DNA of 64,000 nucleotides, taken from NCBI GenBank assembly GCA_002070105.1, contig MWCQ01000009.1, positions 1 to 64,000 of the forward strand. Reading direction: 5' to 3'. Each line of letters begins with the position of its first letter. The first letter of the stretch is position 1. Below are positions 14,210 through 18,232 of the stretch, one piece after another. Below the pieces are notes generated by a model, which had not been told where the DNA came from, did not search any database, and saw only the letters and a program-made list of their open reading frames with translations. The position numbers and the translations under genes were made by a program. The stretch is from Firmicutes bacterium ADurb.Bin193. GTDB taxonomy: Bacteria > Bacillota > Clostridia > Monoglobales > Firm-18.

Positions 14210-15006
14210 GAAGTCCGTATGAAAAGATGCAAATAGCGAAAAATGTTTCAAGACCGAATTTTTACAGCTATGTAAACGCAGTATTCGATGACTTTACGGA
14301 GCTTCACGGTGACAGGCTTTTCGGCGACGACAGCGCCATTGCGGGCGGAATTGCAAGGCTTGGTAAAATTCCCGTAACGGTTATCGGAACGGTTAAGGGC
14401 AACACCACAAACGAAAATATTCAGCGCAACTTCGGAATGCCAAACCCTGAGGGCTACCGCAAGGCGCTTCGGCTTATGCAACAGGCGGTAAAATTTCACC
14501 GCCCCGTTATCTGCCTTATCGATACACCCGGGGCATATCCCGGAGTAGGTGCGGAACAGCGTGGACAGGGCGAGGCGATTGCGAAAAACCTTATGTCTAT
14601 GATGTCATTAAAAACGCCTGTGATAAGCGTAATAACAGGCGAGGGCGGAAGTGGCGGTGCGTTGGCGCTTGCTGTGGCGAACACGGTTTATATGCTCGAA
14701 AACGCTGTTTACTCGGTTATTTCGGCAAACGGCTTTGCGTCTATTCTGTGGAAGGATGCTAAAAGGGAAAAAGAGGCGGCGGAGCTTATGAAGATGACCG
14801 CGCAGGACCTTTATGCGTTTAAGGTTGTGGATAAAATTATTCCGGAGCATCCCGACGGAGCTCACATCTCGCCCGAAATTACCTTTACCGCACTTAAAAA
14901 GGAGCTTACAAAGGATATTAAAAAGCTGACATCAATGAGTGAGGACGATATTTTAACAGGAAGATATGAAAAATTCCGAAGCTTCGGAGTTTTTACCAAG
15001 ATATAA
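14206..15006 (+). CDS. accA: Acetyl-CoA carboxylase carboxyltransferase alpha subunit
   Basis: Alpha half of the carboxyltransferase. The 266-residue product has the conserved ARHPxRP-like opening replaced by [19 protein letters not shown], then [53 protein letters not shown] and a C-terminal helix pair. It is shorter than E. coli AccA (about 319), lacking the N-terminal helix, which is common in Firmicutes. Last gene of the operon, followed by a clear terminator. Confidence 0.95.
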
Positions 15007-15074: not shown

Positions 15075-15103
15075 TTTACATATTTTGTATTATTATGTAT
15101 AAT
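15075..15103 (+). promoter_or_regulatory. Strong promoter driving the small inverted-repeat element
   Basis: TTTACA (15075-15080) and perfect TATAAT (15098-15103) with a 17-base spacer. The predicted start near 15110 coincides with the left end of the inverted repeat AGCAGATGA. Confidence 0.7.
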
Positions 15104-15109
15104 GCAATA

Positions 15110-15316
15110 AGCAGATGACAGGAAATTGAAGGACGGTTAGCCAACTCCGTAAAGGAGGTGCTGCTATGAAATACATACCAAAAATTATTTTTTAGTTTTT
15201 GCGTTTCTTATAGCTTTTACTATAAAAGTAAAGTAACCGCCCTCCGGTCAAGGTAAGCGGCTACTAAACCCAATTATTTTGGCTAACCGTTCATACGGTT
15301 TAGCCTATCATCTGCT
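15110..15316 (+). ncRNA. Predicted small structured transcript bounded by an inverted repeat (type I toxin-like)
   Basis: The ends are inverted copies: AGCAGATGACAGG (15110-15122) against CCTATCATCTGCT (15304-15316, 12 of 13), and ACGGTTAGCC (15133-15142) against GGCTAACCGT (15281-15290). An RNA from the promoter at 15075-15103 would close on itself 5' to 3'. A strong AAAGGAGG (15151-15158) could pair with the later CCTCC near 15241. The right end carries TATAAT on the minus strand, directly before the same AGCAGATGA, so a convergent antisense start is possible. Compact folded mRNAs with buried ribosome sites are typical of type I toxin genes; the function here is inferred. Confidence 0.5.
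15166..15236 (+). pseudogene. Tiny hydrophobic peptide gene, interrupted by -1 frameshift at a T6 run
   Basis: ATG 15166 follows AAAGGAGGTGCTGCT, one of the best ribosome sites in the window, yet the frame stops after nine residues (MKYIPKIIF, TAG at 15193). The T6 run at 15188-15193 sits on the stop. A one-base backward slip, or one extra T, gives a 23-residue peptide that continues LVFAFLIAFTIKVK and ends at TAA 15234-15236: one hydrophobic helix with a basic tail, the shape of type I toxin peptides. It could be a broken gene, a sequencing homopolymer error, or real slippage; these cannot be separated from sequence alone. Confidence 0.45.
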
Positions 15317-15319
15317 ATT

Positions 15320-15451
15320 ATTATACCATAAAAGCGAAGCGAATTATGGTATAATTGCACATCGCCGTTTCCGAGCGCTTTTTGCGAGGAAAATTTCGGC
15401 GGTGCAATAAATTCCACGCGGAGCGTATAATAAACGCTTGCGTTTATTATA
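15320..15451. repeat. Cluster of three perfect palindromes downstream of ileS
   Basis: Three hairpins follow each other: ATTATACCATAA/TTATGGTATAAT (15320-15355), TTGCAC..CGCCG/CGGCG.GTGCAA (15355-15407), and TATAATAAACGC/GCGTTTATTATA (15426-15451) with a two-base loop. They lie between the small transcript and the end of ileS. They resemble mobile-derived palindromic units and may also help terminate the long minus-strand operon. No coding potential seen. Confidence 0.6.
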
Positions 15452-15496: not shown

Positions 15497-18232
15497 TTAT
15501 TCCAAAACAGATGCGCAGCGCTCGCACAAATCCTCATGGCGTTTTCCTACATCGTCCGTAAATGTCCAGCATCTTGCGCATTTTGTTCCCTTTGCGGGGG
15601 AGACCTTTACGGAAAGTCCGCTTTCGGCCTTTTCAAGTGATACGCCCGATGTTATCATAACCGTGGGTAGCTCTGAAAGCACGGACTTTACGAAATCATA
15701 ATTTTTATCGTCCGCAAAAATGGTAATCTCCGCGCCCAGCGAGCTTCCGATAATTTTATCCTGACGCGCAAGTTCAAGCTCCTTTGAGGCTATATCGCGA
15801 AGCTCTAGTATTCTGTCCCACTTTTCCTCAAGCTCCGCCGAATAAAACGAACTGTCAACGGTCGGGAGAAGCGCAAACATAACACTCTGTTTATTATCGC
15901 CTTTGCGGTGGGGCATAAACTGCCAGATTTCCTCTGCGGTAAACGCCAGAATCGGCGCAAGCATTTTTACAAGGCTGTCAAGTATGATAAACATTGCGCT
16001 TTGCGCACTGCGGCGCAGGGCGGAATCGGGCTTTTCGCAATATGTTCTGTCCTTTATTATGTCAAGATAAAAATTACTTAAATCAACCACGCAGAAATTA
16101 TGGATTGCATGGTATAAAACATGGTATTCATACCTGTCATACGCCGATAAAACTTTTTCTATAAGCTTGTTAAGCCGCATAAGCGCCCATCTGTCTATTT
16201 CGGTAAACTCCGTCGTCATGTCTTTATCGGGGTCGAAATCCGACAGCGAGCCGAGTATATACCTTGCGGTGTTTCTGATTTTTCGGTAAACTTCTGAAAG
16301 CTGTTTTAATATGTCCTTTGAAATACGCACATCCGACTTATAGTCCGCCGACGCCGCCCAAAGCCTTAAAATGTCCGCTCCGTACTCGTTTATGATTTCA
16401 AGCGGCGGAAGACCGTTGCCAAGCGACTTGCTCATCTTCCTCTTTTCCTCGTCGATTACAAAGCCGTGAGTCAAAACCGTCCTGTAAGGCGCGGTTTTGT
16501 TTTTAGCGACCGATGTAAGCAGCGACGACTGGAACCAGCCTCTGTACTGGTCGTTCCCCTCAAGATACATATCAGCGGGGAAGGAAAGTTCTTCCCTCGT
16601 TTCCAAAACGGCACTGTGGGAGGAGCCGCTGTCAAACCACACATCCATCGTGTCGGTTTCCTTGGTAAAGCTTGTGCCTCCGCAGGAGCATTTGAAGCCC
16701 TTGGGAAGAAGCTCGCCCGGTTCAAGCTCAAACCACGAATCCGAGCCTTTTTCGCCGAAAACCTTTGCGACCGAGCTTATCGCTGCCTCGTCGATAATCG
16801 GATTTTTGCACGATTCGCAGTAGAAAATCGGGATGGGAACACCCCACATACGCTGGCGCGAGATGCACCAATCCTTCCTGTCTTCGACCATGCTCGAAAT
16901 TCTGTCCTCGCCCCAGGCGGGAATCCAGTTTACTTTTTTAATCGACTCCAAAGCATCCTGCTTAAAATCGTCAACCGATGCAAACCACTGCTCCGTCGCA
17001 CGATATACTATCGGCTTTGAGCACCTCCAGCAATGGGGATATGAATGATTTATGGTCGCAACGGCAACAAGCATACCCTTTTTCTTAAGCTCGTCGATTA
17101 TTGCGGCGTTGGATTTTTCGTAGTACATGCCCGAAAACTGACCCGCATATTCGTTTAAATAACCCTTTCCGTCAACAGGCACAATCATGGGGACATCATA
17201 TCCGCGGCAGGCTTCATAGTCCTCCGCACCGTGACCCGGCGCGGTATGAACACAGCCCGTACCCGCCTCGGCGGTAACATGTCCGCCCGTAATCACAAGA
17301 GAATCTCTTTCCAAAAACGGGTGGGCGCAGACGATATATTCAAGCTCGCTGCCCTTATACCTTCCCACCGTTTGCGCATTCTCTATTCCCGCCGCCTCGC
17401 ATACAGAAGCGACAAGCTCACTTGCTATAACATAAATTTCATCGCCCGATTTTACAAGCGAATACTCAAAATCAGGGTTAACCGAGATCGCAACATTGCC
17501 CGGAAGCGTCCATGTTGTTGTAGTCCAAATTATAAAATAGACCTTATCCTTAAAATCACCGAAAAGGCCCTTGTCGTCCTTAACCGCAAATTTTACAAAA
17601 ATCGAATCGGTTATGTCGTCCTGATACTCAATTTCCGCCTCGGCAAGCGCGGTTTCGCAGTCGGTGCACCAGTACACCGGCTTTAACCCCCTGTATATAT
17701 AGCCCCGCTTTGCCATCTCGCCGAAAATTTCTATCTGCTTTTTCTCATATTCCGGCGCAAGCGTAAGGTAGGGGTTTGCCCAGTCGCCCAATATTCCGAG
17801 ACGCTTAAACTGTGCCTTTTGGTTTTCTACATATAAAAGCGCAAAATCACGGCAGACCCTTCTGAACTCCACCGGAGAAACCTCGCTTTTATCAATGCCG
17901 AGCTTTTTAATCGCCTGACGCTCAATGGGAAGCCCGTGGGTGTCCCAGCCGGGTACATACGGTGTGCAATAACCCGACATGGTCTTTTGCCTTATAACGA
18001 TATCCTTCAGGATTTTGTTAAGAGCATGACCGATATGAATATCGCCGTTGGCAAAGGGCGGACCGTCATGAAGTATGAATTTCGGTTTGTCCTTCCCCTC
18101 CTCCATAAGCTTTTTGTAAATATCCGCCTCTTCCCACATTTTAAGCGTTTCAGGCTCCCTCTGGGGCAGCCCCGCACGCATTGGAAACTCCGTATTTGGC
18201 AAGTTCAGCGTCTTGCCGTAATCTTGTGCCAT
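15497..18232 (-). CDS. ileS: Isoleucyl-tRNA synthetase
   Basis: Class I synthetase charging tRNA-Ile, with editing. The start is ATG 18232 (MAQDYGKTLNLP) behind AAAGGAGTGGAG; the longer open frame upstream reads through divIVA. The 911-residue product has the HIGH motif in ANGDIHIGHALNKIL near residue 58, the GWDTHGLPIE block, the editing domain with TAPGHGAEDYE, KMSKSLGNG near 600, and a C-terminal zinc ribbon (CARCW and CERCASVLE). It is the last gene after divIVA, as in B. subtilis. No T-box leader fits in the 19-base gap to divIVA. Confidence 0.97.
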   Translation of the reverse strand: MAQDYGKTLNLPNTEFPMRAGLPQREPETLKMWEEADIYKKLMEEGKDKPKFILHDGPPFANGDIHIGHALNKILKDIVIRQKTMSGYCTPYVPGWDTHGLPIERQAIKKLGIDKSEVSPVEFRRVCRDFALLYVENQKAQFKRLGILGDWANPYLTLAPEYEKKQIEIFGEMAKRGYIYRGLKPVYWCTDCETALAEAEIEYQDDITDSIFVKFAVKDDKGLFGDFKDKVYFIIWTTTTWTLPGNVAISVNPDFEYSLVKSGDEIYVIASELVASVCEAAGIENAQTVGRYKGSELEYIVCAHPFLERDSLVITGGHVTAEAGTGCVHTAPGHGAEDYEACRGYDVPMIVPVDGKGYLNEYAGQFSGMYYEKSNAAIIDELKKKGMLVAVATINHSYPHCWRCSKPIVYRATEQWFASVDDFKQDALESIKKVNWIPAWGEDRISSMVEDRKDWCISRQRMWGVPIPIFYCESCKNPIIDEAAISSVAKVFGEKGSDSWFELEPGELLPKGFKCSCGGTSFTKETDTMDVWFDSGSSHSAVLETREELSFPADMYLEGNDQYRGWFQSSLLTSVAKNKTAPYRTVLTHGFVIDEEKRKMSKSLGNGLPPLEIINEYGADILRLWAASADYKSDVRISKDILKQLSEVYRKIRNTARYILGSLSDFDPDKDMTTEFTEIDRWALMRLNKLIEKVLSAYDRYEYHVLYHAIHNFCVVDLSNFYLDIIKDRTYCEKPDSALRRSAQSAMFIILDSLVKMLAPILAFTAEEIWQFMPHRKGDNKQSVMFALLPTVDSSFYSAELEEKWDRILELRDIASKELELARQDKIIGSSLGAEITIFADDKNYDFVKSVLSELPTVMITSGVSLEKAESGLSVKVSPAKGTKCARCWTFTDDVGKRHEDLCERCASVLE

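Follow-up and report, generated by a model that had tools for sequence, protein, structure and literature searches.

What is the intergenic element that lies between two converging gene ends in the DNA of Firmicutes bacterium ADurb.Bin193, bounded by inverted repeats and carrying a -10 box at either end, and is this copy still at work? The window, by which we mean the whole stretch of 64,000 nucleotides that was analysed (contig MWCQ01000009.1, positions 1 to 64,000), had been the subject of an earlier note, which read the element as a structured toxin mRNA opposed by a convergent antisense RNA. On one side are fatty-acid/acetyl-CoA carboxylase genes, the accA-like ORF ending at 15006, and on the other an isoleucyl-tRNA-synthetase-like ORF on the minus strand, ending at 15497, these names being taken from our reading of the ORFs. 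The paired ends, the near-consensus forward promoter and the TATAAT at each end that the note had reported were all found as described. The sense promoter TTTACA-17-TATAAT (15075 to 15103, plus strand; -35 at 15075-15080, -10 at 15098-15103) agrees with the consensus at 11 of 12 positions, and its distance to GGTTAGCC is equal to that in relatives. It lies upstream of the 5' arm of a closing helix (AGCAGATGACAGG and ACGGTTAGCCAA, 15110 to 15144, plus strand), the 3' arm of which, consisting of TTGGCTAACCGT, a local hairpin and CCTATCATCTGCT, occupies 15279 to 15316 on the same strand. The repeats are nested in order, 15110-15122 pairing with 15304-15316 (12 of 13 positions match) and 15133-15144 with 15279-15290 (12 of 12). 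Between the arms are a Shine-Dalgarno hairpin, CTCC-GTAAA-GGAGG (15145 to 15158, plus strand), AAAGGAGG, an ATG at 15166 that begins a broken peptide ORF (15166 to 15236, plus strand), and a stop-codon hairpin (15232 to 15265); the minus-strand TATAAT is found past the right arm, at 15325-15320. Folding of the predicted transcript, one of the checks that the note had proposed, gave -75.7 kcal/mol (z -8.1), and none of 200 shuffles was as stable. By itself the inverted-repeat 13-mer is nothing unusual for the window (2 matches at up to 2 mismatches, where 1.25 are expected); what makes the element significant is that the repeats are paired and nested, and that this arrangement is conserved.

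When 60 related genomes were searched at the DNA level, several proved to carry full-length relatives. One genome (G018) holds a five-unit tandem array (locus L050, G018:C1:2361000-2365000) whose units encode nearly identical peptides; in one unit a single sequence of about 70 nt, present in inverted orientation on the two sides, has replaced both arms, as though a match between them were required. A contig pattern scan with GGTTAGCC..GGAGGTG..GGCTAACC yielded 48 loci, almost all of them built like the window element, from Clostridia, Sporomusa, Lachnospira, Evtepia, Dysosmobacter, Peptococcaceae and one Coriobacteriia record, and the reversed pattern had no match in any genome listed. The order in the family is sense promoter, 5' arm, Shine-Dalgarno hairpin, ORF of 22-30 amino acids, stop-codon hairpin, complementary 3' arm and convergent antisense promoter. 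A covariance model, R1, was built from 17 members, with no Hol_Tox locus in the training set; two pattern matches that it did not support (L077 and L080) were set aside as chance. In the covariance search that the note had also proposed, R1 matched, within the window's order, 37 of 51 genomes (including 17 of the 21 good ones), with a maximum of 24 matches per genome and some loci matched on both strands; the window's own genome has a single R1 locus, with one match per strand. Within a sample of Bacillota, 21 of 249 genomes were matched, mostly at loci with Hol_Tox-like peptides such as MTVFEALTLMISFAGLVVLILSVKKD. R1 also detected, full-length and with E values reaching 1e-13, Pfam Hol_Tox loci from clostridial families other than its own, none of them used in training.

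Relative to this family the window copy has two lesions. The antisense promoter of the family matches the consensus at all 12 positions in 35 of 61 elements and at 11 or more in 53 (control mean 7.7 of 12), and its distance to the anchor is nearly fixed at about 25-32 nt; the sense promoter is weaker, with a family mean of 9.6 (controls 7.7). The note had called the minus-strand -35 poor, which holds at the present site only: there a 126-bp REP/MITE-like repeat (15326 to 15451), inserted at TATTATA within the antisense promoter, has split it. Comparison of the sequences places the antisense -10 (15320 to 15325, minus strand) apart from its -35, and the original TTGACA-16-TATAAT now lies displaced at 15473-15446 on the minus strand. 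When the window flanks are joined without the repeat, TTGACA-16-TATAAT is followed by AATAGCAGATGATAGG, which is the arrangement and spacing of the family. Further copies of the repeat occur in the source genome, one tandem with a period of 126 (G000, C1:269406-269698), and nearly all copies looked at are bordered by TATTATA, so that the repeat may insert at TATAATA-like -10 boxes. The second lesion is in the ORF. The tiny frame noted at ATG 15166 is present, and proved to be part of a longer, frameshifted one: the zero frame reads MKYIPKIIF (15166-15195) up to a TAG that falls inside a T6 run, after which the -1 frame is open to the TAA at 15234-15236 (MKYIPKIIFLVFAFLIAFTIKVK), with a family-like end (compare MRRYIAKIIVCIILIIVFLLTFTTNVK, from the open ORF of relative L108).

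With a frameshift in its ORF and a break in its antisense promoter, the window copy is most likely inactive. That it still functions, by -1 frameshifting at U6A or phase variation of the T6 run, with antisense read-through from the displaced promoter, appears unlikely. The open -1 frame, the intact displaced promoter and a paralogue similarly broken at a T9 run (L056, G021:C9) would all suit such function, but in most intact relatives the frame runs without a break, UUU followed by UAG makes a weak slippage site, and two independent lesions suggest decay. The break at T6 could also be an assembly error; error, slippage and antisense read-through are each possible. The paralogue reads MWNALLKVIVSIIIFF up to a stop, and its run, like that of the window, might allow slippage-prone switching. 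We return, then, to a copy that looks decayed, and to what intact copies encode.

Values of pN/pS ranged from 0.28 to 0.50 in four groups of relatives' peptides, and although these figures may be affected by the overlapping RNA constraints, they point to purifying selection on the peptide. Searches of protein family libraries with peptides of the window's subfamily returned no toxin family match, only sub-threshold noise, and peptides of the window type did not reach the curated cut-off of Pfam PF16935 (Hol_Tox); a Sporomusa locus from the pattern scan that has the same RNA frame (L071) does pass it. Four paralogous loci (L089, L096, L099 and L107) carry a Hol_Tox-like frame, TTFYEVLSLLLSAISVYIAWRSWKGNKK or close to it, with an ACG start instead of ATG. 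Eight loci (L095, L097, L098, L102, L109, L112, L114 and L115) encode non-hydrophobic, alternating peptides of the MPITLTFHVLHWTVTIRVKSRNRH type, with pN/pS of 0.5, and the non-hydrophobic peptides of some loci may not be membrane toxins. One could imagine a structured mRNA under antisense control that encodes a small regulatory or membrane peptide rather than a toxin, as toxicity itself is only predicted, the peptides vary widely, the amphipathic non-hydrophobic MPITLTFHVLHWTVTIRVKSRNRH among them, and the loci are multicopy and chromosomal. We consider this decidedly unlikely: Pfam Hol_Tox peptides occur on the same RNA frame, the peptides include small, lysine-tailed hydrophobic ones, and the greater strength of the antisense promoter over the sense promoter follows the logic of a toxin-antitoxin pair.

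For such a pair, the ends of the two RNAs can be predicted from T-runs. Past the stop-codon hairpin the antisense side has 5.4 T per 10 nt, against 3.1, and past the 3' arm the sense side has 9.4 per 16 nt, against 5.1 (p 1e-9 and 6e-11). From this asymmetry we predict that the antisense RNA terminates at the stop codon and that the mRNA runs on past the 3' arm before ending, which is also the situation in bsrG/SR4. Among 56 loops, a YUNR motif is present in 51 on the antisense side and in 30 on the sense side, a count made without a shuffled control. The par/Fst system of pAD1 likewise has convergent promoters, a hairpin crossed by both RNAs and a sequestered Shine-Dalgarno sequence. However, par has direct repeats, DRa and DRb, transcribed from both sides, a shared terminator and an Fst toxin with PXXXG, whereas the arms here are inverted, the T-runs point to separate terminators and PXXXG is absent from the family peptides. 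That the locus is of the par/Fst type was rejected as highly improbable on account of its inverted repeats and asymmetric termination signals.

The remaining evidence for a bsrG/SR4-like arrangement concerns the arms, for which regions outside the locus-finding anchors were compared in 28 sequence clusters. The pairing energy is -25.2 kcal/mol for arms of the same element, compared with -14.5 for crossed arms, and no value as low as that of the own arms was reached in 20,000 permutations; the paired ends are conserved in related genomes, as the note's proposal demanded. Covariation was found across the inner helix, the Shine-Dalgarno hairpin and the stop-codon hairpin (44 double-change cells, 14.6 in shuffles) and, with the outer arm included, in a 17-sequence alignment (41, against 13.6), in excess of all 500 shuffles. 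The 5' arm covaries in alignment A2, as does the 3' arm with which it coevolves; relatives keep the Shine-Dalgarno hairpin with 85-87% of cells paired, and 5-6 of the 9 pairs of the stop-codon hairpin covary. Arm pairing is also stabler as sense RNA than as antisense RNA. An initial strand test gave this result in 26 of 28 clusters, and a crossed-arm control was added because of the effect of composition: the sense advantage was 4.6 kcal for own pairs and 1.9 for crossed pairs (0 of 20,000 permutations), composition bias making up about 40% of the difference. The ratio of G.U to A.C was 41:10 in own arms, against 950:516 (p 0.024), and the sense duplex was the stabler in 35 of 35 loci found by R1, a largely independent set examined without the crossed control. 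Because wobble pairs favour the sense RNA, the repeat is best read as the closing helix between the 5' and 3' ends of a toxin mRNA. Self-pairing of GGUUAGCC between the two RNAs was considered as well and dropped, the strand test having favoured intramolecular pairing. That the repeats are the ends of a MITE or insertion-sequence remnant with incidental promoters, as might be suggested by the inverted repeats at the termini, the numerous copies within a genome and the tandem arrays, is scarcely credible and was rejected, since the arms vary between lineages yet remain matched to each other, the wobble bias is to the sense strand, and promoter, Shine-Dalgarno hairpin, ORF and terminator are all conserved.

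The note knew of no named family with this layout, which turns out to be that of bsrG/SR4 from B. subtilis SPbeta and of clostridial holin-like-toxin loci. In SPbeta bsrG we read the order 5' arm, Shine-Dalgarno hairpin, lysine-tailed ORF, stop-codon hairpin, 3' arm and terminator. In that system there is a helix P1, pairing takes place at the 3' end, RNase III cuts close to the stop codon and the antitoxin promoter is 6-10-fold stronger; in other Bacillus species bsrG loci are reported to encode a different toxin (PMC6562991, PMC7430163). The closing helix, a Shine-Dalgarno sequence in a short helix, the stop-codon hairpin and, in the family, a convergent antisense promoter beyond the 3' arm, with the antisense RNA over the 3' end and the stronger antitoxin promoter predicted, are common to both. 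The window and most relatives differ in having no Hol_Tox peptide and in scoring below the BsrG gathering threshold, and a U-rich stretch takes the place of bsrG's second terminator hairpin, which lies outside P1. No Rfam family matched the window at gathering, and RF01412 BsrG gave no match there at all. With RF01412 (gathering 55 bits) the clostridial Hol_Tox locus L133 reached 55.4 bits, and L059 and L062, of the window's family, gave full-length but weak matches of 22.3 bits. R1 did not detect SPbeta bsrG, and the link between the family and bsrG therefore runs through intermediates. A weak full-length match of 22.7 bits (gathering 45) was also seen between 15096-15230 and the Listeria sRNA rli28.

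Clostridial Hol_Tox loci (PF16935), which R1 finds full-length, have the same arms, promoters and terminators, with a toxin (MTxYEAxxLMI...) unlike the MKYI, MEYV and MWN peptides. The B. subtilis txpA/RatA system, compared by description and not by sequence, has a convergent antisense RNA that overlaps the mRNA at its 3' end, its Shine-Dalgarno sequence in a short helix and a very strong ribosome binding site, but its toxin is longer, at 59 amino acids. CD2517.1-RCd8 and similar systems of C. difficile are likewise clostridial, convergent and of type I, and their small hydrophobic peptides have lysine tails; they differ in that the toxins, of 34-53 amino acids, are without homology, and in their association with CRISPR arrays or prophages. 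In hok/Sok and aapA1/IsoA1, long-range folding keeps the full-length mRNA inert; these differ in antisense position and processing, and we know of no sequence relation between them and the window's family. Inert full-length mRNA of this kind is described in PMC6733600. Taken with the coevolving arms, the conserved antisense promoter, the strand-specific T-runs, the selection on the peptide and the Hol_Tox loci found by R1, these comparisons suggest that the layout is bsrG/SR4-like and of a kind already known. The window very probably holds a degenerate copy of such a type I toxin-antitoxin locus; the structured toxin mRNA with convergent antisense RNA that the note proposed is supported by comparative evidence for the family, and the window copy looks decayed.

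Transcription, control of translation and toxicity are predicted here from sequence, as follows. In intact relatives the weak promoter would give a toxin mRNA of about 210-260 nt, the ends of which would pair in the long closing helix, and with its Shine-Dalgarno sequence in a hairpin it would be poorly translated. From the convergent promoter, which is stronger, almost perfect and situated immediately beyond the 3' arm, would come an antisense RNA of about 90 nt that spans this arm and terminates at the stop-codon hairpin. Pairing would probably begin at the hairpin loop, with its antisense-side YUNR, open the 3' arm and mark the mRNA for RNase III. Should the antisense RNA fail, a membrane peptide of 22-30 amino acids would be made.

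Type I systems are hard to find, their toxins being tiny and diverse, and a review reports that few of them have been found in Clostridia by homology searches (PMC6563280). No published description of the frame was found in the literature searched, in which most subscription journals lay outside coverage. What appears new is that the frame can be recognised as an RNA family, one for which Rfam has no entry; that it is abundant in Clostridia, intact versions being common in those of the gut and for the most part unannotated; and that it is combined with several peptides unrelated to one another, non-hydrophobic ones included. With an RNA model based on the frame, many unannotated loci come to light in one order and can be connected with holin-like toxins, and the exchange of toxins on one RNA frame becomes open to test. 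In the window, a split antitoxin promoter and a broken toxin frame occur together naturally, as would be expected of an addiction module. We suggest, tentatively and at somewhat less than even confidence, that in Bacillota a single conserved RNA frame acts as a cartridge in which unrelated micro-toxins can be exchanged, whether Hol_Tox peptides, several other hydrophobic ones or non-hydrophobic amphipathic ones of the MPITLTFHVLHWTVTIRVKSRNRH type. If this is true, the RNA and not the toxin would define the family, and the MPITLTFHVLHWTVTIRVKSRNRH-type peptides would represent a type I toxin of a new kind.
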